In this document: piece after piece, positions 42 to 35,988 of the stretch
Numbering within the stretch: position 1 is the first letter of the stretch
How the letters are laid out: every line of letters starts with the position of its first letter
Made by a program: the position numbers and the translations under genes
Notes under the pieces: generated by a model
What the model saw: the letters and a program-made list of their open reading frames with translations, nothing else
Databases searched by the model: none
What the model was told of the DNA's origin: nothing
From: a virus
Reading direction: 5' to 3' (one strand)
IMG/VR virus record: IMGVR_UViG_3300022562_000735
Location: 1 to 35,988 of that record
Length of the DNA: 35,988 nt

Positions 42-70
42 TTGACCATAATTATATATATATATATTAT
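42..70 (+). promoter_or_regulatory. Candidate rightward (late) promoter in the terminal repeat
   Basis: TTGACC at 42-47, a 17-bp AT-rich spacer with alternating TA, and TATTAT at 65-70 match a sigma70 promoter. Its -35 overlaps one copy of the TTTGACCAT iteron, so an iteron-binding protein could control it. It is the only clear promoter ahead of the tightly packed terminase-to-lysis gene run. The copy at 35886-35914 is identical. Confidence 0.6.
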
Positions 71-93: not shown

Positions 94-141
94 ATGTTAA
101 GTTTTACTACTATTAAGGGATATGAATTTTACGTATTTTAA
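94..141 (+). CDS. 15-codon leader ORF with strong ribosome site
   Basis: An ATG at 94 follows a G-rich ribosome site (GGGGGAG at 85-91) and opens 15 codons, MLSFTTIKGYEFYVF, ending at TAA 139-141. It starts about 24 bp after the promoter at 42-70 and lies wholly within the terminal repeat, so it is present at both ends. I recognise no family. It could be a leader peptide affecting downstream expression or a chance ORF. The strength of the ribosome site is the main reason to list it. Confidence 0.35.
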   Translation: MLSFTTIKGYEFYVF

Positions 142-144
142 TAG

Positions 145-412
145 AGTCGATTTTTTTGGTCAAAATGGATTTTTTGAAAAATTTCTTTTATTTTTCAAGA
201 GGTTAGGCGGGACAAAAAATGGACGCAAAAATGGTCAAAGATGGTCAAAATTACGATTTCGGGACAAACCCTTATATTTCAATGACTTAAAAATGGTTCC
301 GCCTGAATGGGGAAACCGGTATGTCTACAACGCGTAAAAAACTGATATCAAAACATGCGATGTGCGCGGCTACAATAGCTCAAGTTCACTAAAAAGTCAA
401 ACGGATTGCGAT
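145..412 (+). other. Gene-free stretch upstream of the terminase genes
   Basis: Apart from the left inverted-repeat arm I see no supported gene here. A 71-codon ORF from 122 to 337 overlaps the inverted-repeat arm, lacks a good ribosome site and has low-complexity Phe/Lys-rich translation. I treat it as chance. In-frame GTG at 362 is an alternative, less attractive start for the small terminase gene. Confidence 0.5.
186..265. repeat. Left arm of ~80-bp inverted repeat with iterons
   Basis: This arm holds, in inverted order, the same elements as 35783-35865: CGGGACA, ATGGTCAAA twice in tandem (about 231-249), and CGGGACAAA at about 259-267. Across the joined ends the two arms bracket about 165 bp containing the promoter and leader ORF. 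Further single iteron-like copies lie at about 41-49, 157-163 and 35694-35701. Confidence 0.8.
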
Positions 413-850
413 ATGATAGATGGGCAGCTAATCAGCGATGACGAACTACCATTCTTGCTGCAACAGCTAAAATCTAAACGACCACGCACACCGAAAAATC
501 TAATAGAAGCGGCTATGAGTTATTTTAAAGCTGCGCACAATACTAAAGTGCTAGACCGCTCAGGCAACGCTGTAGAACGCCCCTGGACGCTGGATGGGCT
601 ATTACTTCATATCGGACTTATACGACAAGACTGGCGTGAATTTAAAGCGCGCGATAACTTCAAGCGTGTGTGCGAGCGCATCGAGATGTTGATTTATACA
701 CAAAAATTTGAACTCGCAGCGATAGGGGTGTATAATTCAACGATCATGTGTAGAGATCTAGACTTAGTTGACAAGTCAGACGTCACGTCGAATAGCGAGA
801 CGATGCAACCTGCAACTTTCGTCAGAAAAATAGTGCATGCAGGAGAATAG
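413..850 (+). CDS. Terminase small subunit (DNA-packaging, gp3-like)
   Basis: The small terminase subunit recognises phage DNA and regulates the large subunit during packaging. The 145-residue product has the layout of this family: an N-terminal TPKNLIEAAMSYFKAAH helix, a helix-turn-helix-like segment (VERPWTLDGLLLHIGLIRQDW) and a helical IEMLIYTQKFELAAIGVYNSTIMCRDL region. It lies directly ahead of the large subunit. I prefer ATG 413 over in-frame GTG 362, since neither has a strong ribosome site and the extra 17 residues (RGYNSSSSL...) look unlike the family. The end overlaps the ribosome site of the next gene. It may bind the iteron/inverted-repeat region just upstream. Confidence 0.85.
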   Translation: MIDGQLISDDELPFLLQQLKSKRPRTPKNLIEAAMSYFKAAHNTKVLDRSGNAVERPWTLDGLLLHIGLIRQDWREFKARDNFKRVCERIEMLIYTQKFELAAIGVYNSTIMCRDLDLVDKSDVTSNSETMQPATFVRKIVHAGE

Positions 851-852
851 CA

Positions 853-2082
853 CTGCAAGAGCTTATCGTTGAAACGCCTGGCTGGGCTGTACCACTATTG
901 GAACCTGCGCACTACAAAGGCGCAGCAGGTGGCAGGGGTAGTGGCAAAAGTCACATGTTTGCGAGCTTATGCATTGAAGAGATGCTGCGCGACCCGTATC
1001 TTGATTTTGTATGTTTGCGAGAGTTTCAAAAATCGCTCAAGTACAGCGTAAAAAAATTAATCGAGGAAAAGATACGTGAATACGGCGTACAATCGCAGTT
1101 CAAAATCATGGAGCGCGAGATACGTCGATTAGGGCGCACAGGAGCCACTTCTCGCATCATTTTTGAAGGTCTTAACGATCACACTGCAGACTCGATAAAA
1201 TCGCTAGAATCGTTCGCTAGAGCCTGGTTTACAGAAGCACAACGCGCGTCAGAGCGTTCGTTACAGTTACTTAGACCGACTATACGCGCCCCAGGCAGTG
1301 AGCTCTGGTTCGATTGGAATCCTGATCAGCCCTCCGATCCTATAGAAAAGCTGTTCTCATCAAAGCGCGATGATTTAGTCTTTGTAAGAGTTAATTATTT
1401 TCAGAATCCATTTTTACCTGATATTTTAAGAAAAGAAGCAGAGCAGTGGCGGCACGACGACCCCACATCTTTCGCACATGTGTGGCTCGGTGAGTACAAC
1501 ACAAACGCAGAAGATCAAATACTGCACGGCAAATGGGAAGTGCGTGAATTCGAGATACAGAAAGACTGGAGTGTGTACTATGGTGTCGATTGGGGTTTCA
1601 GTACTGACCCAACTGCGGCAGTTGAGTGCTATGTGTCATCAGAAAATTATCTGTACATTAATCAAGAGCTCTACAAGACAAAAGTTGAAACTGAACAATT
1701 ACCCACTTTTTTATCGCAAATAGAGAACTTACCTCGGCACGTTGTACGTGCAGACAATGCAAGACCCGAGAATATCAGTCACTGCAAACGACACGGCATT
1801 ATGAGAATGTGCGCAGCTGAAAAGTGGAAAGGGTCAGTTGAAGACGGCATTAGTAAATTGCGGTCTTTTAAGAAGATAATAATATCACCATCGTGTAAAA
1901 ATTGGGAAACTGAAGCACGGCTTTACAAATACAAAAAAGATAGACATACTGACGATATATTGCCTGATGTTATCGACAAACATAATCACTTAATCGATGC
2001 TACGCGTTACGCATTAGAACCACTGACAAAACGAAGATCATCGATTATGAATGCACCCGCGAGCGCGCTACGTGTTAGATAA
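853..2082 (+). CDS. Terminase large subunit
   Basis: ATP-driven packaging motor and nuclease that fills the prohead. Walker A GGRGSGKS lies at about residues 26-33. A Walker B-like segment ending in WFTEAQ lies near residue 125. The RNase H-like nuclease begins with YYGVDWGFSTDPT around residue 240 and continues with ADNARPENISHCKRHG and a C-terminal HLIDATRYAL. The likely start is CTG 853, seven bases after AGGAG (841-845). It restores a family-typical N-terminus (LQELIVETPGWAVPLLEPA) that the next possible start, TTG 898, would remove. The 409-residue length is at the short end for the family but all motifs are present. The portal start overlaps its end by 32 bp. Confidence 0.93.
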   Translation: MQELIVETPGWAVPLLEPAHYKGAAGGRGSGKSHMFASLCIEEMLRDPYLDFVCLREFQKSLKYSVKKLIEEKIREYGVQSQFKIMEREIRRLGRTGATSRIIFEGLNDHTADSIKSLESFARAWFTEAQRASERSLQLLRPTIRAPGSELWFDWNPDQPSDPIEKLFSSKRDDLVFVRVNYFQNPFLPDILRKEAEQWRHDDPTSFAHVWLGEYNTNAEDQILHGKWEVREFEIQKDWSVYYGVDWGFSTDPTAAVECYVSSENYLYINQELYKTKVETEQLPTFLSQIENLPRHVVRADNARPENISHCKRHGIMRMCAAEKWKGSVEDGISKLRSFKKIIISPSCKNWETEARLYKYKKDRHTDDILPDVIDKHNHLIDATRYALEPLTKRRSSIMNAPASALRVR

Positions 2083-14595: not shown

Positions 14596-14901
14596 ATGGC
14601 TGTCATAGTTCCGATAGAAGCAATACCCAACCAGTCTCTCGATTTTAACGCTGAGCAGCAAGTGTATAAGCTTCGTTTACATGTAGTTAACACGAACATA
14701 GCTATAGACATAGCGAGAAACGGAACGCAATTACAATCTAGTCGTGTTTGTCCCGCGGGTGCGCTATTAATAGAGTATGACTATTTGCGCGGTAGCGGCG
14801 GAGACTTTGGCATCATAACGCAAAATGATGAGATACCTGTCTATACGCAATTTGGCGTTACGCAATTTTTAGTATACTACTTTTCTGATGAGTTGTCGTA
14901 A
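14596..14901 (+). CDS. Small baseplate protein (DUF6983-like)
   Basis: A 101-residue beta-rich protein. The opening VIVPIEAIPNQSLDFNAEQQVYKLRLHVVN and the mid-segment CPAGALLIEYDYLRGSGGDFGIIT resemble the small baseplate hub-associated proteins found between the Dit-like and hub genes in this group of phages. It overlaps the next gene by one base. Family naming is tentative; structural role from position. Confidence 0.7.
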   Translation: MAVIVPIEAIPNQSLDFNAEQQVYKLRLHVVNTNIAIDIARNGTQLQSSRVCPAGALLIEYDYLRGSGGDFGIITQNDEIPVYTQFGVTQFLVYYFSDELS

Positions 14902-16823: not shown

Positions 16824-18024
16824 TCCTATCGACAACACCGGTATCGTTGTTGTTGACACTTCACAGATAAAATCTGAAGTTCAACAGACGTACTTGACAG
16901 CTCTGGGCGACGATTTATACCTAGGCGACGAATCGCCACAAGGGGTGTTAATTAGTGTACAAACGGCAGAGCGCGTAGGCGCGGTGTCAGCGGTCGCTAA
17001 CGCTGTTAATCAGATAAACCCCAATGTGAGCGAAGGCGTATTTTTAGACGCTATATGCGCGCTTAGCGGCATTCAACGAAGCCCTGGCACGTTCTCTACA
17101 TTCTCTGTAAACCCAACTGTGACTGGCGTGCCTGGCACACTAATACCCGCAGGATCACTTGCAGTGACACCGCAAGGAGATCGCTTTCAGACAACTGCAA
17201 GTGTAGCAATTCCCGCGCTCGGCAGTATTACTGTACCTTTTATCGCAGTCGAGCGAGGCGAAGTAGCGTGCCCTGTCGACAGTCTTTCTATAGATGTGCC
17301 GATTGCAGGCTGGGAAACTGTTACTAATACTGTCGCTGCGACGCCGGGGGAGCCGGTCGAGTCAGACCCACAATTGCGCATTACACGCAACAATACACTA
17401 GCATTCCAAGCCGCTGCGGGGCGAGAGGCGATAGTCTCAGGGGTTGCGCTGCAACCGGGCGTTTTTGACGTCGTATCGCGCGATAATGACTCTAACTCAC
17501 CGCAGATCATAGACGGTGTGCTACTCAACGCAAACAGTGTGTGGGTTTGTGTGAGTGGCGGCGATGACACTCAAATAGCAGAACAGCTAAACGCGTCGAA
17601 AAATTTTGGTGCGCCGTGGCAAGATAACATACCACCTGCAACAGGTGTGTCAATTAATGTGATAGATCCGTACAACGGTCAACCGAACACTATTTTATTT
17701 GACCGACCAGCGGCTGTGCCTGTTGCGTATCAAGTCACTATTAACAGTAATGGAGTATCGAATGCACAAAGCATAACGCGACAAGCTATTTTAGACTATG
17801 CAGTCGGAAATATACCAGCGCTCGGAAAGCTTGGTATTGGTGTCGACGTGTCGCCATTTACTGCAACATCTGCTATAAATAGTGTATCCCCGGCTATTGA
17901 AGTATTGAACGTCTTAGTTACGCTACTTAGCGTTGTGAATTTTCAACCCGTCACTATTCCAATTCCACTAACGCAGCTTGCAACAGTTTCTGCTAGCGAT
18001 ATAACAGTTGTAGACGTAGCATGA
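16807..18024 (+). CDS. Baseplate J-like protein (Mu gp47 family)
   Basis: Wedge component that transmits the contraction signal. The 405-residue product has family landmarks: GDESPQGVLISVQTAERVGAVSAVANAVNQINPNVSEGVFLDAICALSGI, AGSLAVTPQGDRFQTTASVAIPALGSI..PFIAVERGEVACP, GREAIVSGVALQPGVFDVVSRDND and the closing VGNIPALGKLGIGVDVSPFTATSAINSVSPAIEVLNV. Full-length, with ATGA overlap to the next gene. Confidence 0.9.
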   Translation: MSSPYNPIDNTGIVVVDTSQIKSEVQQTYLTALGDDLYLGDESPQGVLISVQTAERVGAVSAVANAVNQINPNVSEGVFLDAICALSGIQRSPGTFSTFSVNPTVTGVPGTLIPAGSLAVTPQGDRFQTTASVAIPALGSITVPFIAVERGEVACPVDSLSIDVPIAGWETVTNTVAATPGEPVESDPQLRITRNNTLAFQAAAGREAIVSGVALQPGVFDVVSRDNDSNSPQIIDGVLLNANSVWVCVSGGDDTQIAEQLNASKNFGAPWQDNIPPATGVSINVIDPYNGQPNTILFDRPAAVPVAYQVTINSNGVSNAQSITRQAILDYAVGNIPALGKLGIGVDVSPFTATSAINSVSPAIEVLNVLVTLLSVVNFQPVTIPIPLTQLATVSASDITVVDVA

Positions 18025-23400: not shown

Positions 23401-23476
23401 TTTTATTTTTATTTTTATTTTTATTTTTATTTTTATTTTTATTTTTATTTTTATTTTTATTTTTATTTTTATTTTT
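23401..23476. repeat. (TTTTTA)n hexanucleotide microsatellite
   Basis: A perfect 6-bp repeat: 11 full units at 23406-23471 flanked by partial units, 76 bp in all. The stop codon of the upstream repeat gene (TAA on the minus strand, 23469-23471) lies inside it. The ribosome site of the following gene (AAGGAG) begins directly after it. Slippage here would change the leader length of the 123-residue protein without altering either reading frame. Confidence 0.97.
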
Positions 23477-24155
23477 GTGTTCTATACTTTAAGACTCGTA
23501 TACATACTCCGTTTTTGTACCAACATTTTGTTCCGTTGCTGTAAATAGCCGCTGGCAAATCATTCTCGCGATTGAGTTTTCCGTTTTTGTACCAGAATTT
23601 TGAGCCATCAGCATATTCGACAGATGGTAAATCATTATCACGATGACGTTTTCCGTTTTTGTACCAAAATTTTGTTCCGTTGCTGTAAATAGCAGCTGGC
23701 AAATCATTCTCGCGATTGAGTTTTCCGTCTTTGTACCAAAACTTTGTACCATCACTGTGCTCAACCGCAGGTTTATCATTGTCGCGATTACGTTTTCCGT
23801 TTTTGTAGTAATATTTTGTCCCACTTTCATATTCGACCGCGGGTAAATCGTTGTCGCGATTGAGTTTTCCGTCTTTGTAATATCGCTTTCTGATACATGA
23901 TTCAACATATTCTATAACCGCGGGTTTGTCATCGCCTCTATCAAGTTTTCCATTTTTGTACCACTTTTTTGTACCATCTTGTCTTTCAATAGCTGGCTTA
24001 TCGTTCTCTCGATGAAGTAATCCATCTCTGTACCAACGCTTTGTGCCATTTTTAAAAATAATTGCCGGCTGATCGTTGTCGTTATGTAGTAATCCGTTTT
24101 TGTAATAACGCTTTGTTCCGTATATGTCTGTTACGCATTCTATAATGTCATTCAT
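23469..24155 (-). CDS. 24-residue repeat protein A (MORN/YwqK-like)
   Basis: A 228-residue protein made almost entirely of about 8.5 copies of a 24-residue unit: G-[TS]-K-x-[WY]-Y-[KR]-[ND]-G-x-x-x-[RN]-x-[ND]-D-x-P-[AS] plus a variable tail of about five residues. Such WYxNGxxHRxxxPA units occur in MORN-variant/YwqK-type proteins of bacteria and large viruses and probably fold as a stack of beta hairpins. Their role is not known to me. Units KLNRENDLPAAIYSN occur twice identically. A 60-bp block (23525-23584) recurs 144 bp on (23669-23728) with one mismatch, showing recent unit duplication. The 5' end is near-identical to repeat protein B. Its start has only a weak ribosome site. Confidence 0.8.
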   Translation of the reverse strand: MNDIIECVTDIYGTKRYYKNGLLHNDNDQPAIIFKNGTKRWYRDGLLHRENDKPAIERQDGTKKWYKNGKLDRGDDKPAVIEYVESCIRKRYYKDGKLNRDNDLPAVEYESGTKYYYKNGKRNRDNDKPAVEHSDGTKFWYKDGKLNRENDLPAAIYSNGTKFWYKNGKRHRDNDLPSVEYADGSKFWYKNGKLNRENDLPAAIYSNGTKCWYKNGVCIRVLKYRTQK

Positions 24156-24175
24156 TTTATTATTAGTATTTCTTT

Positions 24176-24247
24176 TTATAGTAATTCATTTTCATTATGC
24201 AGCTTTCCATTTTGTAATATTTTTGTACCCCGCTTCATATGTTAATT
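24176..24247 (-). pseudogene. Decayed repeat unit of the 24-residue family
   Basis: On the minus strand this stretch reads, after restoring one missing A, as ...YYKNGKLHNENELL followed by TAA. It matches the repeat consensus. Uncorrected, the frame is lost and no start codon is in register. It lies 48-119 bp after repeat protein B's stop, suggesting that B once ended with extra units or that another paralogue has degenerated. Confidence 0.55.
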
Positions 24248-24294
24248 ATTTTATTACAGCATTCATTTTTAATGCTAAGTTTTTATTTTTATCA

Positions 24295-24885
24295 TTACAC
24301 AAATTTTACATTATATTGCTTTCCGTATTTGTACCATTCTTTTGTGCCGTCTGCGCGCTCGATTGCAGGTAAGTAATTATTGCGATGTAGTTTTCCATAT
24401 TTGTGCCAAAATTTTGAGCCGTCAGCATGTTCAATAGCATGTAGATCATTTTCTCTATGTCGAAAACTGTTTTTGTACCACTCTTTTGATCCATCGTAAT
24501 ATTCAATTGACGGTTTATCGTTCTCTCGATTGAGTTTTCCGTCTCTGTACCATTTTTTTGTACCATTATAATATTCGATCGCGGGTTTATCATCGCCGCG
24601 GTCAAGTTTTCCATCTCTGTACCACTTTTTTGCGTTGTGATTTATAACTGCGGGTTTATCATCGCCGCGATCAAGTTTTCCGTTTTTGTACCATCTTTTT
24701 ACAAAGTCTTGTCTTTCAATAGCTGGTAAGTCATTATCACGATGAAGTAATCCATCTCTGTACCAGTGCTTTGTACCATTTTTAAAAATAATTGCGGGTT
24801 TGTCATTGTCGTTATGAAGTAATCCGTTTTTGTAATAGCGTTTTGTTCCGTATTCGTCTATTACACACTCTATTTCATTAGTCAT
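24295..24885 (-). CDS. 24-residue repeat protein B (MORN/YwqK-like)
   Basis: A 196-residue paralogue of protein A, with about seven and a half 24-residue units. The first two units (IECVIDEYGTKRYYKNGL... and IIFKNGTKHWYRDGLLHRDND) are almost the same as those of A, and GKLDRGDDKPAVI occurs in both. Later units diverge (KNSFRHRENDLHAIEHADG, KYGKLHRNNYLPAIERADG). Its ATG overlaps the stop of protein C as ATGA, so the two are translated together. The leader carries GAGATTAAAAA before ATG, similar to its neighbours. Function unknown. Confidence 0.8.
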   Translation of the reverse strand: MTNEIECVIDEYGTKRYYKNGLLHNDNDKPAIIFKNGTKHWYRDGLLHRDNDLPAIERQDFVKRWYKNGKLDRGDDKPAVINHNAKKWYRDGKLDRGDDKPAIEYYNGTKKWYRDGKLNRENDKPSIEYYDGSKEWYKNSFRHRENDLHAIEHADGSKFWHKYGKLHRNNYLPAIERADGTKEWYKYGKQYNVKFV

Positions 24886-25172
24886 TTTTTAATCTCAGTT
24901 TTATAACGCACTCCATTTTCATACCACTCTTTTGTACCATCATCTCTCTCTATAGCGGGTTTATTATTGTCGCGATGAAGTAACCCATTTTTGTACCATT
25001 CTTTTGTTCCGCCAGCGTATATTATAGCCGGCAAATCATTGTCATTATTCAGTAATCCATTTTTATACCAAAATTTTGTACCGTATTCTTCGTCTATTAC
25101 GCATTTTATTTTGTCTTTCCAAAATTTTTTACAGTACTCTTCGTCTATTTTGCATTCTATTTCAGCTGACAT
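24882..25172 (-). CDS. 24-residue repeat protein C (short)
   Basis: A 96-residue member of the same family with three repeats (GTKFWYKNGLLNNDNDLPAII, GTKEWYKNGLLHRDNNKPAIE, GTKEWYENGVRY) behind an N-terminal cap containing the CKIDEEY.KKFWKDK and CVIDEEYGTKFW near-duplicates. The cap xxEIECxIDEEYGTK is shared with A and B, showing common descent. GGAGATT precedes its ATG. Follows protein D by three bases and overlaps B. Confidence 0.78.
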   Translation of the reverse strand: MSAEIECKIDEEYCKKFWKDKIKCVIDEEYGTKFWYKNGLLNNDNDLPAIIYAGGTKEWYKNGLLHRDNNKPAIERDDGTKEWYENGVRYKTEIKK

Positions 25173-25175
25173 TTT

Positions 25176-25469
25176 TTAATCTCCGTTTCTTACATACACT
25201 TTATCTTCATTTTTTCTTTGAGTCGCGATTAACTTTCCGTTTTTGTACCAATCTTTTGATCCATCATAGTATTCAATTGCACTTATTTCTGTCATCTCAA
25301 CCGCCGGCCGGTCGTTTGGGTCTCGGGTTTGAGTGATACACGCTAGTGCAAGTGCTGCGAGTCGAGCTTTTTCGTCTTTTTCTTCTTCAATCTCATGCAA
25401 ATCATCTTCTCTACAACATCTTTTTAAATCTTTTTCTAATCGTTCTAGTTTTTCTATGCTAGTAGTCAT
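25176..25469 (-). CDS. Repeat-family protein D with coiled-coil head
   Basis: A 97-residue protein. Residues 1-48 are a charged helix (MTTSIEKLERLEKDLKRCC...EIEEEKDEKARLAALALACI), then DPNDRPAVEMTEISAIEYYDGSKDWYKNGKL gives about one and a half units of the family. A helical domain joined to a single repeat could act as an adaptor for the repeat proteins, but that is speculation. It is the first gene after the promoter at 25525-25552, with GGAG before its ATG. Confidence 0.68.
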   Translation of the reverse strand: MTTSIEKLERLEKDLKRCCREDDLHEIEEEKDEKARLAALALACITQTRDPNDRPAVEMTEISAIEYYDGSKDWYKNGKLIATQRKNEDKVYVRNGD

Positions 25470-28165: not shown

Positions 28166-28237
28166 TATTTTAATCCTTTTTTAGTATAAAAATTATTTGA
28201 TATGTCTATTGATCTAGTATCAATTCTATATAAATTA

Positions 28238-28266
28238 ATAGTATGCTAATAAATAATATTTGTCAA
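28238..28266 (-). promoter_or_regulatory. Candidate promoter for DNA polymerase
   Basis: On the minus strand TTGACA (28266-28261), 17 bp, TACTAT (28243-28238). The plus-strand block 28261-28281, covering the -35 and the 15 bp upstream, recurs exactly at 28859-28879, upstream of the next gene. That points to a shared regulator site or UP element. Confidence 0.7.
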
Positions 28267-28289
28267 CACTTTTATATAAAACTTTTAAC

Positions 28290-28784
28290 TTAATTTTTAG
28301 TGCAGTCTACTTCGTCTAGTTGTTTGTCAACGCAGTACACGATGTACACACATCCTTGCTCGTCCTCGCTCTCGCACGCGTCGTAGCCGAGTTTGTGCGC
28401 TAAAATTCCTTGAAATTGCTGCATTATCCAACTTTTTTCGCCGTCATCTTGCTCAGCATAGTCATAAATATCTTCACTCTCGTCGAGTATGTTAAAAATA
28501 GTTTCAAGACCCAGCTCGTCTGTATCTAAGTCTACCGCTGCTGCGAACTGTTCTAGTATAGCTGCGACTACTTCATCTTCGTGTGAATGTTCGTATTGAA
28601 CTCTGTGCAGTTCTAAAATGTTGTTCTCGTCGATATCGAGATTGTATTGATATCTGCAGTTGTTAGCTAGATTGTAAGTGTTGCCCTCATCAGCAAAAAA
28701 CAAACATCCAAGCTGCGTAGTGCTGTAGATGCTTCTGTTAGTAACACGTTCTATTTTTTCAGCTGATGCGTGAGTTATGATCAT
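28290..28784 (-). CDS. Acidic ADP-ribosyltransferase-like protein (tentative)
   Basis: A 164-residue acidic protein. The start (IITHASAEKIERV, then LGCLFFADEGNTYNLANNCRYQYNLDI..NNILELH) follows the pattern of ART-fold domains of polyvalent phage proteins: an H.(S/T).A opening, G..FF.(D) strand, and a YxxxLxxxNxLxLD-like strand. The C-terminus (HKLGYDACESEDEQGCVYIVYC.DKQL) resembles their closing GYDGx...(G)xVYVVFxxxQIK strand. If so, H5-like and E/D residues near SEDEQG would be the candidates for NAD binding and catalysis. Similarity judged by eye only. Alternatively a novel acidic inhibitor. GGAG before ATG; own promoter. Confidence 0.45.
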   Translation of the reverse strand: MIITHASAEKIERVTNRSIYSTTQLGCLFFADEGNTYNLANNCRYQYNLDIDENNILELHRVQYEHSHEDEVVAAILEQFAAAVDLDTDELGLETIFNILDESEDIYDYAEQDDGEKSWIMQQFQGILAHKLGYDACESEDEQGCVYIVYCVDKQLDEVDCTKN

Positions 28785-28835
28785 TTTGTAAGCTCCATTT
28801 TTAATGTTGAGTCAGTCTCAACTTTGTATAGAGCA

Positions 28836-28864
28836 ATAATATACTAATAAATAACAGTTGTCAA
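28836..28864 (-). promoter_or_regulatory. Candidate promoter for the 164-residue gene
   Basis: On the minus strand TTGACA (28864-28859), 17 bp, TATTAT (28841-28836). Shares the 21-bp block at and upstream of the -35 with the polymerase promoter. Confidence 0.7.
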
Positions 28865-28925
28865 CACTTTTATATAAAAAAGTTAAAATTTTTTTAGCCG
28901 ACATCGTTTTTATTCGACATCAGCT

Positions 28926-30872: not shown

Positions 30873-31103
30873 ATGGCTTATAAGATAAAAGACACGCAAA
30901 TTTGGGTTCACAATCTGAACAGACTTATAGAACGTGATGAACGTTGTCTTACACGCATCGCAGCAGACTGCGGTTTTAGTGTTACACATTTGCACAACTT
31001 AAAAAATGGCGATACGCTAAATTGCGGCGTGCAAACATTTGCATCTATAGCTAAAGCATTCAATCTTACGTTAGATGAGCTATATTACACAAAAATCAAA
31101 TGA
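30873..31103 (+). CDS. XRE/Cro-type transcription regulator
   Basis: A 76-residue helix-turn-helix protein. DERCLTRIAADCGFSVTHLHNLKNGDTLNCGVQTFASIAKAFNLTLDELYYTKI shows the usual five-helix XRE arrangement: recognition helix VTHLHNLKNG, then TFASIAKAFNLTLDELY. It is encoded first in the rightward replication transcript, next to two divergent promoters, so it probably regulates both. Only one such regulator is seen, and no CI/Cro pair. Its stop overlaps the next ATG by four bases. Confidence 0.85.
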   Translation: MAYKIKDTQIWVHNLNRLIERDERCLTRIAADCGFSVTHLHNLKNGDTLNCGVQTFASIAKAFNLTLDELYYTKIK

Positions 31104-32807: not shown

Positions 32808-35126
32808 ATGAATAGCGATTTCGAGCAATTTGTAACTGGCATTTTTAGAGCTGACGTTTTACTAGATAATGAACACCCACTTTTTTGGTACTCAACACGC
32901 GTCGGTATTCATTATCCGATCTCGCTAAGTGAACTGCTAGAACGCGCAAAATCAGACAGCTATTTCAGTGCGTACTACGGCACGTCAACGATGCGCGCGC
33001 AAGCGGACGGAAAGGTATTCAACAGACAGTCGCAATTCTTTCGCTATTTTGTAGTTGTTTTAGACGATGTCGGAAACGGCGAAGGTGCGAAGCTTCGCTT
33101 TAGCGATTTGCCTGCAGGGCTGCGCAGTGGGTATACATATAGTGTAGAGACGTCTCCAGGGAACTACCAACTCGGCTACGTATTAGATGAGCCCATCTCG
33201 GATTTGAGCGTTGCTAAACAGCTGCAGCGCGACGTCATTATCAGCGCAGGCGCGGATAGCGGCGGGATGCTAGTGAATAAAGCTGTGCGGTTGCCGTTCG
33301 GTTTTAACGTGAAACGCGGCTCAGATGGGAGCTATAAATACAGCACAGACGGAAGACCGTTTGAGTGTCGTTTGAAAAAATGGACGGGAAAATACTGGAG
33401 CGCAGACGCGCTACGTTTAGCGGCAGGCGTGACAGGTGAGCTTGCGGCGACGGCAAAAACATGCGGTACGACGCTACTAAAAAAAGACGACGTGCATTTT
33501 ATCGCGTCGAAGGGAATCGTAGACCCGGTTTACGAATGGTTAATCAAACAGAACTATGTGCACAGCGAGGGCGCGGATTGGGTAACGATAGAATGCCCCT
33601 GGGCGCACGAGCACACAAACAAAAACGAGAGCGCAGCGGGGTACAGTCCGCTCGGGCTTGGTGAGCAACCGCATCGCCGGGGGTTTCACTGTTTTCACGA
33701 CTCATGCTCAGGGATCGGCACACAAGATTTTTTAACCTGGGTATACCAATTAAGTGGAATTCGAGCAAGCGTTTTTGCAGGCGTTGCAGAGATGGTATCG
33801 CGCTACGCTTTTATCACTGCACAGAATAGCGCGGTCGATATGTTGAGTGGTGATTATACAATTTATCAGCATGCGGGCTTTAAAAATCAGTACTCGGGTC
33901 TGTTGCCCGTACCCGCGAAAAAAGGGAAGGGTATGGATCGTGTTAGTGAGTACACACTTTACATGACCGATGTTAATCGTATGCGATTGAATAATCTAAC
34001 TTTTTTGCCGGGTGATGATTTGTTAGTTGAACGGGGCGCGGACGGGTACCCGGATTTGAATCTATATCAAAAAGTATTCTGGCCGTCGATTGAATATGAC
34101 ATTAAACGTGTGCAACCGTTTTTAGACTTCATAAAGTACTTATGTTTTCATGAAACAGACTCGGATTGGCTACTAAAGCACATAGCAGCGAAGGCTCAGA
34201 ACCCAAAATATAGGGGCTTAGGGGTGATAATGAATACCCCTCAAGAGGGAACCGGTAGAGGGACGCTTGAGCGTGTTTTGCGAAGGCTTTGGTCGCAGAA
34301 AAATGTTAGTGTGTTGACGCTTTCAAAGTTGTTAGATGGTGTTGCAGCAGAGATTAATAACCGATTTTTGTTAGTCGACTGGATATTCGTTCCAGAAGCA
34401 AAAGACGCGCGTATGACGACACGCGAAGAATATCGAAGCTACGAGACTTTGAAAAGTTTTATCGAGCTGGGTGGTGTTGAAGTGTTGATTAAAGAAAAGT
34501 GGCTGACTGATATCAGACCTCTTTGCTACGCGTCGACTATTATTTGCAGCAATCACGATGATGTTGTGCCGAGCGACAGCGGCGACAGTCGATTAAAGCG
34601 CATTAACAATACGCGAAATGTGTGGCCAGAGGAGAGGTGGGTTGCGTTTTACGATTGGCTTAAGAAGCCGGGGTGGGAGCCTCATGTCTGGTCGTGGCTA
34701 TTACAGCACAATGTTGGTGAACACACAACGTATGTACGCTCACGACGTCGTACACTGCACGAAGAGGCTATTAATGCTATCTTATATGAAAAGCCTGTGC
34801 TCAGTGCTGTTATATTGTCTGTATTGTACGCTGACGCGCGGTGGGGCGGCGTTTTAAAGCCTGCGTGGTGTGTTTCGGGTATGTATGGTGTGGCAATGCA
34901 GCTGAAGCTAGACAATATAAATGGCTGGGAGCGAGTGCTTAAAAAAGAACTCATTAGCAAAACATATCATACTGATAGTCGTGTTAGTGTTGATGGTCGT
35001 CGTGAGCGTGTTCGTACTACTGCAGATTTTAAAGACATGGATTGTATTGAGGGCTTTAGTAAGACAGTATTCGAGACGGGGCTTCAGAAGTTTGTATTAG
35101 CTTTTATTGAAGCTGAGGGTTTGTAG
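32808..35126 (+). CDS. Primase-helicase (D5/RepB-type) for replication
   Basis: A 772-residue replication protein. Residues about 60-190 resemble an archaeo-eukaryotic-type primase (FRYFVVVLDDVGNGEG, VETSPGNYQLGYVLDEP, KAVRLPFGFNV). Next is a zinc-ribbon-like stretch, CPWAHEH (Cys263) and FHCFHDSC (Cys295, Cys300). The helicase domain follows: Walker A-like NTPQEGTGRGTL with Arg484 in place of lysine, then RFLLVDWIFVPEAKD (Walker B-like) and the sensor region YASTIICSNHDDVVPSDSGDSRLKRINN. This architecture matches bifunctional phage primase-helicases. No separate DnaB is seen, so it is likely the replicative helicase-primase. Confidence 0.86.
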   Translation: MNSDFEQFVTGIFRADVLLDNEHPLFWYSTRVGIHYPISLSELLERAKSDSYFSAYYGTSTMRAQADGKVFNRQSQFFRYFVVVLDDVGNGEGAKLRFSDLPAGLRSGYTYSVETSPGNYQLGYVLDEPISDLSVAKQLQRDVIISAGADSGGMLVNKAVRLPFGFNVKRGSDGSYKYSTDGRPFECRLKKWTGKYWSADALRLAAGVTGELAATAKTCGTTLLKKDDVHFIASKGIVDPVYEWLIKQNYVHSEGADWVTIECPWAHEHTNKNESAAGYSPLGLGEQPHRRGFHCFHDSCSGIGTQDFLTWVYQLSGIRASVFAGVAEMVSRYAFITAQNSAVDMLSGDYTIYQHAGFKNQYSGLLPVPAKKGKGMDRVSEYTLYMTDVNRMRLNNLTFLPGDDLLVERGADGYPDLNLYQKVFWPSIEYDIKRVQPFLDFIKYLCFHETDSDWLLKHIAAKAQNPKYRGLGVIMNTPQEGTGRGTLERVLRRLWSQKNVSVLTLSKLLDGVAAEINNRFLLVDWIFVPEAKDARMTTREEYRSYETLKSFIELGGVEVLIKEKWLTDIRPLCYASTIICSNHDDVVPSDSGDSRLKRINNTRNVWPEERWVAFYDWLKKPGWEPHVWSWLLQHNVGEHTTYVRSRRRTLHEEAINAILYEKPVLSAVILSVLYADARWGGVLKPAWCVSGMYGVAMQLKLDNINGWERVLKKELISKTYHTDSRVSVDGRRERVRTTADFKDMDCIEGFSKTVFETGLQKFVLAFIEAEGL

Positions 35127-35140
35127 TAGTATGTTTTTAA

Positions 35141-35166
35141 TAGCCGCAGGCTTGCGCTTGCGGCTA
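35141..35166 (+). terminator. Hairpin after the primase-helicase gene
   Basis: TAGCCGCA (35141-35148) and TGCGGCTA (35159-35166) form a perfect eight-pair stem with a 10-nt loop, 15 bp after the stop. No T-run follows, so it may be a weak terminator or a 3' stabiliser. Confidence 0.45.
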
Positions 35167-35629
35167 GGGGCTTGCATTATCGATGACAAGCTTTAGTCGA
35201 TGAAGTAGAAACATTCGACATCGACATCTTATATATTACGTCACATAGTTGATCAGCTCAAGTTTTTTCACATCTATAAGTCCGTAGTTTTCTATATCCC
35301 CCGCGTATTAACCTTTCCGGCATGTTCTCTGCAGCTAAAATGCGCGTAGCAGACTCAATACATCTGCAAAACTAAAATCCCCTTTTACGTTACCCAATTC
35401 GTCGATTTTGGTTAAAAAATGTACAAATTCCCCCTTTTTCTATGAACGTAGGATAAGTATGTTAGTAAACACTCACAAAAAAAGTACTATAAAACAACGT
35501 ACTAAAACTCCCTTTAGGGAATTTGGCCAAAAAGGGGCGTTATATAAGGGGGATTTGGGGGGTAAAAAACACATTATGGGGAATTAGTAAAAAAAGTGTA
35601 AGTTATTGTATTTTAACGGAAAATAGGTG

Positions 35630-35658
35630 TTGACCGTCGTAGCCGCCTATGTTATCTT
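35630..35658 (+). promoter_or_regulatory. Candidate promoter in right-end region
   Basis: TTGACC (35630-35635), 17 bp, TATCTT (35653-35658). It is upstream of the iteron-bearing inverted repeat and of the 28-codon ORF. A transcript from here would run toward the joined ends and could add to terminase transcription. Confidence 0.5.
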
Positions 35659-35692
35659 GCGGTCGTAAATAGGGGGGTTTTGAGGGGGAAAA

Positions 35693-35779
35693 GTGGTCAA
35701 AAAAACCACAGCGACTCAAGAAAATCTAAGTGATGGTCAGGTGAAAATTCCCCCCTTGCTGTGGCGGGGCGGTTTTTAA
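35693..35779 (+). CDS. Possible 28-residue peptide
   Basis: GTG 35693 follows the G-rich site GAGGGGG (35682-35688) and opens 28 codons, translation MVKKTTATQENLSDGQ and then a proline/tryptophan-containing end, stop TAA 35777-35779. The start lies in the hairpin GTGGT-CAAAAAA-ACCAC (35693-35709), which could hide it. No family recognised; may be chance. Confidence 0.3.
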   Translation: MVKKTTATQENLSDGQVKIPPLLWRGGF

Positions 35780-35782
35780 AAA

Positions 35783-35865
35783 TGTCCCGAAAACGGAATT
35801 TTGACCATCTTTGACCATTTTTTAAAAAATATTTTGTCCCGTCTAAACTATTGAAAAATAACTAT
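35783..35865. repeat. Right arm of ~80-bp inverted repeat with iterons
   Basis: Read on the plus strand this arm matches the reverse complement of about 186-265 at most positions. It contains, in order, TGTCCCGAAA, two tandem TTTGACCAT iterons separated by one base (about 35801-35818), TTTTGTCCCG, and CTAA.CT.TTGAAAAATAA, which runs into the terminal repeat. Paired TGTCCCG boxes around tandem iterons suggest a protein-binding array such as an origin, a regulatory site or a packaging site. Confidence 0.8.
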
Positions 35866-35988
35866 TATTTTAATATTTTATTACTTTGACCATAATTATA
35901 TATATATATATTATATAAAAAGATCAAAGGGGGAGAAATGTTAAGTTTTACTACTATTAAGGGATATGAATTTTACGTATTTTAATAG
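35845..35988. repeat. Direct terminal repeat, right copy (144 bp)
   Basis: Exact copy of bases 1-144. It follows directly on the right arm of the large inverted repeat, so the junction reads continuously if the molecule is circularised. It carries the second copy of the TTGACC/TATTAT promoter and of the short leader ORF. Confidence 0.95.
35886..35914 (+). promoter_or_regulatory. Second copy of terminal-repeat promoter
   Basis: Same TTGACC/TATTAT promoter as at 42-70 within the repeated terminal 144 bp. It is one and the same site if the genome is circular. Confidence 0.55.

Follow-up and report, generated by a model that had tools for sequence, protein, structure and literature searches.

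The noncoding region between the primase-helicase and terminase genes

The window, meaning the whole stretch of 35,988 nucleotides analysed here, is a circular phage contig that measures 35,844 bp once closed. Its ends share 144 bp, such that positions 1-144 are identical to 35845-35988 and each feature within them is printed twice. Because of this identity, the two arms of the inverted repeat described below face each other across positions 18-187 of the closed circle. The 144-bp end repeat itself lies inside the element and shares its first 17 bp with the left arm; it may be either an assembly overlap or a genuine terminal repeat.

The gene content is that of a contractile-tailed phage with a complete phage gene set. 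Packaging and structural genes (terS, terL, portal, capsid and tail) lie to the right of the joined ends, and genes for Pol A, a DUF2800 exonuclease, an XRE-like protein, a VRR-NUC protein, an SNF2-type helicase and a primase-helicase lie to the left. Between the primase-helicase stop at 35126 and the terS start at 362 there are 1,079 bp that hold no convincing gene; a 71-aa ORF at 122-337, which runs across the right arm, has no match in PHROGs. The features are as follows.

30873-31103: XRE-like protein gene
32808-35126, plus strand: primase-helicase (772 aa), the proposed initiator, assigned from Pfam, a profile match, an AlphaFold model and structure matches
35127-35844: noncoding region, left part, continuing at 1-361
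35694-35701, minus strand: outlying single iteron TTTGACCA, the seventh copy
35783-35861, plus strand: left arm of the inverted repeat
35783-35789, plus strand: TGTCCCG box, outer left
35800-35808, plus strand: iteron L1, TTTGACCAT
35810-35818, plus strand: iteron L2, TTTGACCAT
35835-35841, plus strand: TGTCCCG box, inner left
1-361: noncoding region, right part, extending to terS
41-49 (also printed as 35885-35893), plus strand: inner iteron L3, TTTGACCAT, overlapping a -35-like TTGACC
42-70, plus strand: promoter-like TTGACC-17-TATTAT (consensus match only)
50-156: AT-rich core, about 80% AT, the proposed unwinding region
95-142, plus strand: putative 15-codon leader ORF, after a purine-rich stretch resembling a ribosome site
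135-163, minus strand: inward-facing promoter-like TTGACC-17-TAAAAT (consensus match only)
157-164, minus strand: inner iteron R3, TTTGACCA, overlapping a minus-strand -35-like TTGACC
188-266, minus strand: right arm of the inverted repeat
208-214, minus strand: TGTCCCG box, inner right
231-239, minus strand: iteron R2, TTTGACCAT
241-249, minus strand: iteron R1, TTTGACCAT
260-266, minus strand: TGTCCCG box, outer right
362-850, plus strand: terS, P22 gp3-like (PHROGs/Pfam)
898-2082, plus strand: terL (PHROGs/Pfam)

An earlier sequence-only reading of this DNA had described inverted arms of about 80 bp at the joined ends, each with two tandem iterons between two TGTCCCG boxes. The observation is confirmed, with arms of 79 nt each and 85% complementarity; no longer inverted pair occurs in the window. 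Specifically, each arm carries a TGTCCCG box, two TTTGACCAT iterons at 10-bp spacing, and a second TGTCCCG that follows 52 bp after the first. When the noncoding region is aligned with its own reverse complement it scores 98, compared with 17.7 ± 3.0 (maximum 32) for 200 shuffles, and the self-alignment continues inwards as far as the lone iterons L3 (41) and R3 (157). Three iterons are thus found on each side, all facing inwards around the AT-rich core. That reading had also noted single iterons nearby, one of them in a promoter -35 element; this holds for L3, but L3 is not the only such copy, as R3 also covers a -35-like hexamer.

The array is the strongest iteron cluster of the genome, with five copies of TTTGACCAT observed versus zero to two in dinucleotide shuffles of the genome. 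TGTCCCG occurs elsewhere as one unrelated copy at 14749. All 12 mismatches between the arms fall outside the 32 box positions (P = 0.001, with the boxes defined after inspection), a distribution that would fit sites for a protein better than a need for base pairing.

The arms do enclose an AT-rich core, as had been proposed. Of all 60-bp segments in the genome, the least stable starts at 14, inside this core, with an ATTTTT-repeat stretch at 23404 a very close second. The two promoter-like sites both face inwards, and autoregulation through iterons over their -35-like hexamers is plausible; such matches are weak evidence in AT-rich DNA, where shuffles give about 2 to 3 per region. The GC-skew check that had been suggested was run on the overall sequence and on fourfold sites; the skew keeps its sign at the repeat, a result confounded by gene orientation.

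The primase-helicase and known origin systems

The product of the upstream gene is an AEP primase joined to an SF3 helicase, homologous to NrS-1 polymerase. Its domains are an AEP domain (RepB_primase) and an SF3 or NrS-1-type helicase (DUF5906). The profile match to the NrS-1 C-terminal region has E=1.3e-17 (profile positions 404-678), whereas direct BLASTP against NrS-1 polymerase gives E=1e-4 only. An AlphaFold model has a mean pLDDT of 75.6 and a pTM of 0.41, such that domain placement is uncertain. In this model, the N-terminal part matches the AEP domains of S-2L PrimPol (Z 16.1) and RSF1010 RepB' (Z 14.1). The helicase part matches the NrS-1 C-terminal region best (Z 20.8); further matches are poxvirus D5 and, at Z 16.4, the primase-helicase of SaPI5. 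Modelled residues 650-738, comprising helices and a beta-hairpin, look like a winged helix by the order of their secondary structures.

RSF1010 is relevant for its AEP fold. Its oriV combines iterons with inverted priming sites, and it encodes separate helicase (RepA) and iteron-binding (RepC) proteins. Other phage origins include those of Streptococcus thermophilus Sfi21 and lactococcal ori31.

Phage NrS-1, a deep-sea Nitratiruptor phage (L219), offers a closer comparison. Its genome holds 11 copies of AGTGTAAC at 17062-17377, beginning 11 bp after the polymerase gene and forming a cluster that outranks all others in that genome by a wide margin. As in the present phage, the gene order is polymerase, array, terS and terL, with the iterons in mixed orientations, an AT-rich stretch and a homologous helicase domain. 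The NrS-1 array differs in its iteron and copy number, in its proximity to the gene, in having no long inverted arms, and in carrying an annotated hypothetical ORF. This ORF, NRS1_29 (17055-17456), overlies all 11 copies and is possibly not a true gene. The sequence that NrS-1 polymerase recognises when priming is TTTGGTTA (PMC8718748), and the recognition sites of the enzyme, counted as two copies, have been suggested as the origin (PMC7102993). The deposited genome contains one copy only, at 17198, inside the AGTGTAAC array. A single copy of TTTGGTTA also occurs in our window at 35407 (plus strand), in the same noncoding region, where it may lie by chance (about 3% by region size).

The sequence-only reading knew of no exact precedent for this arrangement, but the layout has already been described for phage-inducible chromosomal islands (PICI), in which the origin lies 3' of the primase/initiator gene and has an AT-rich region flanked by two sets of iterons (PMC6092414). 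In SaPI Rep, the C-terminal domain recognises iterons directly downstream of its own gene, and SCCmec Cch2 is alike (PMC7581432). The present locus has the same elements, namely an AEP and SF3-type protein with a fold match to that of SaPI5, an array in the noncoding 3' stretch, and inward iteron sets around an AT-rich core. Unlike in these islands, the iterons lie within long 85% inverted arms with a second type of box, 657 bp from the gene, and the genome is that of a complete tailed phage with terminase, portal, capsid and tail genes rather than a phage-dependent island. By analogy, then, the element would work like a PICI origin, and with its complete phage gene set the genome is not a PICI. 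pRN1 and phage BIP-1 also carry an origin just downstream of an AEP-SF3 replication protein; theirs is recognised as a stem-loop and has no iterons (PMC4234260).

Arrays beside primase-helicase genes in other phages

Relatives were gathered as 80 loci by portal alignment and 80 more by terminase alignment, and were scanned for 8-mers with four or more copies on both strands within 600 bp. Selection through portal and terminase biases these loci (L027-L190) towards adjacency of array and terS. In many of them the best clusters lie 1 to 3 kb upstream of terL, and each locus has its own word, for example GTGCCAAA in L029, GCGTGACA in L027, GGGCGCGA in L113, CGGGTCCA in L031, CTGTAGCA in L033 and AAGGTTAC in L087. 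The gene ending beside the array encodes a primase-helicase in L029, L113, L054, L087, L189, L164 and L017, with domain types that include RepB_primase, PriCT_2 with DUF5906, VapE, Prim-Pol with AAA_25, and AAA_25 alone.

One parallel is the syntenic locus G003/L029, whose primase is 39% identical and is followed, from 3 bp past its stop, by seven copies of GTGCCAAA. The array starts in L113, L054, L087, L189 and L164 range from 49 bp upstream to 51 bp downstream of the primase-helicase stop, and that in L017, found through its terminase, is 1 bp from it. The left arm of the present phage, which begins 657 bp after the stop, is further away than in most phages compared, and the array of L019 lies 3.4 kb from its primase. 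L027, L031 and L033 also have arrays, but their contigs end before a primase becomes visible upstream. Arrays in L164, L189 and L017 have little or no AT-rich core and are weaker analogues. Strict dyad statistics on the relatives gave mixed orientations that are not significant one by one, and we therefore speak of a dyad only for the present phage and a few others.

The arrays of L148 and L004 fall within ORFs and were excluded as coding repeats; in L004 (7874-8246), CTTGTCCC repeats fall in an ORF with KLGDK-type repeats and are possibly coding iterons. Separately, GGGACA/TGTCCC, which recalls the TGTCCCG boxes of our window, is the iteron word after primase-helicase genes in the otherwise distant phages of L164 (5031-5150), L189 (2869-3004), L017 (14432-14572) and L208.

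An independent set of 12 named phages was picked by primase-helicase homology only. In eight of these (PB15, CGphi29, 1N2-2, SS2019XI, Vibrio 1.017.O, LP.1, BcepNazgul and phiAxp-2), no other stretch of the record scores as high as the 450 bp that follow the stop (combined P = 3e-6). In PCA1 the cluster at this place is weaker and is outscored elsewhere in the record, and this phage fails the rank test along with ct76p945, CRP-831 and Rostov 43. Across phages with divergent primase-helicases, the arrays are mostly of mixed orientation, built from unrelated iterons and usually placed right after the gene. Among RepB-type relatives with full-length primases, by contrast, nine of twelve have no clear cluster after the primase (L196-L203, L205 and L206, with L203 cut at the gene end); only G003 and L195 have an array, and L204 has a weak one. 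Thus, the layout of an array after a primase gene is common but is not a rule.

Other searches returned little. Single-protein searches with the primase or the terminase found few or remote relatives, the VapE-helicase search returned near copies of the query only, and the exact iteron-pair pattern had seven chance matches in viral contigs, none of them with the architecture. Conservation of the iterons among relatives had been proposed as a check, and the outcome is divided: the array architecture recurs, but the iteron sequence differs by phage. What relatives preserve is the architecture rather than the sequence, so that absence of the arms from close relatives, which had been named as a refutation, is not literally applicable.

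A predicted origin and competing explanations

We consider it likely that the array and its core form the replication origin of this phage, organised like the pri-rep-ori arrangement of PICI. The proposal builds on what was observed of the anatomy of the element, of the domains of the candidate initiator, and of arrays recurring downstream of primase-helicase genes. The primase-helicase, probably through its C-terminal domain, would bind the TTTGACCAT iterons. Since the left iterons point right and the right iterons point left, the core would be flanked by a pair of complexes in opposite orientation, which may be two helicase rings. These complexes could then melt the AT-rich DNA and start forks, and replication may be bidirectional. 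A second class of site, for the same or another protein, would be provided by the TGTCCCG boxes, which may be regulatory, and binding of iterons over the inward-facing promoter-like sites could repress or time transcription. Our confidence in these mechanistic details is lower than in the assignment as an origin.

The recurrence of arrays suggests a broader hypothesis, for which we regard the case as evenly balanced. Tailed phages may share a widespread and mostly unannotated class of origin, in which a gene for an AEP primase-helicase, or for a RepA/VapE-type helicase, is followed immediately 3' by a fast-changing array of mixed orientation with its own iteron in each phage, PICI being one branch. 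Origins are unknown for most tailed phages, and if this class is real they could be predicted from sequence alone. If an array after a primase-helicase gene marks the origin, a simple scan would predict origins in many phages. NrS-1 would be one of them; its polymerase serves as a model enzyme in structural work and has no proven origin.

The sequence-only reading had left the choice between an origin and a terminase recognition site. The first part is strengthened by the recurrence of arrays after primase-helicase genes, and the second has become less likely. In a packaging site, TerS would bind the iterons and TerL would cut nearby, at a cos or pac site. The array is indeed directly upstream of terS here, in most terminase-selected relatives and in NrS-1, although for L027-L190 this adjacency is partly due to how the loci were selected. 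Moreover, the cos overhang annotated in BcepNazgul (L217, 4911-4922) lies at the far end of the gap that holds the array, about 600 bp from the primase stop, indicating that an origin and a cos site can share such a gap. In the present phage, too, a cos or pac site may lie elsewhere in the gap. The arrays nonetheless track the primase-helicase gene: in Luteibacter phage Pluto, found by its primase, CGTACTAA repeats follow the helicase gene at a distance of 90 bp, with terL lying 14 kb off. In Alteromonas phage PB15 and phage SS2019XI the array follows the primase, and the 2.5 kb retrieved past the match carry no terminase annotation. TerS of the present phage belongs to the P22 gp3 family, and the pac site of P22 lies inside its terS gene. 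Together, these points make a packaging site unlikely.

An operator is a very unlikely alternative, in which a repressor such as the XRE-like protein would join the iteron sets in a loop and thereby govern the promoters in the core as well as the late operon. The inner iterons overlap the -35-like hexamers and the genes to the right encode packaging and structural proteins, as such a model would have it. However, TTTGACCA has no copy in the genome outside the array region, including the upstream gap of the XRE gene itself, promoter-like matches are expected in AT-rich sequence, and such a model would leave unexplained why arrays accompany primase-helicase genes in different phages.

The origin might instead be of the pRN1 type, with the primase-helicase reading the inverted repeat as a cruciform or hairpin. 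The position of the pRN1 and BIP-1 stem-loops and the 40-nt perfect arms of L027 are in keeping with this idea, which we judge highly improbable: the arm mismatches, all in spacers, spare the boxes rather than keep pairing throughout, and the arrays of L113, L031 and NrS-1 have no long continuous palindromes. Inverted arms around a short core could also suggest an RNA element (an attenuator or structured leader), a transposon relic or an attachment site, and tandem TTTGACCAT does occur by chance near some tRNA/integrase loci, but these readings are scarcely credible, given the lack of an Rfam match, transcript folding (left part only) little better than in shuffles (z -1.8), a phage collection without DNA similar to the left part, and a phage genome in which neither an integrase nor a tRNA was identified.

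Two further repeats were observed elsewhere in the window. On the minus strand at 23469-25469, 72-bp tandem units encode proteins with repeated 'DGTKxWYKNGKLHRxNDxPA' motifs, which had no convincing PHROGs match for those tested. Near minus-strand genes, two 89-nt stretches (28209-28297 and 28807-28895) are 76% alike, carry TTGTCAACACTTTTATATAA and are possibly paired phage promoters.
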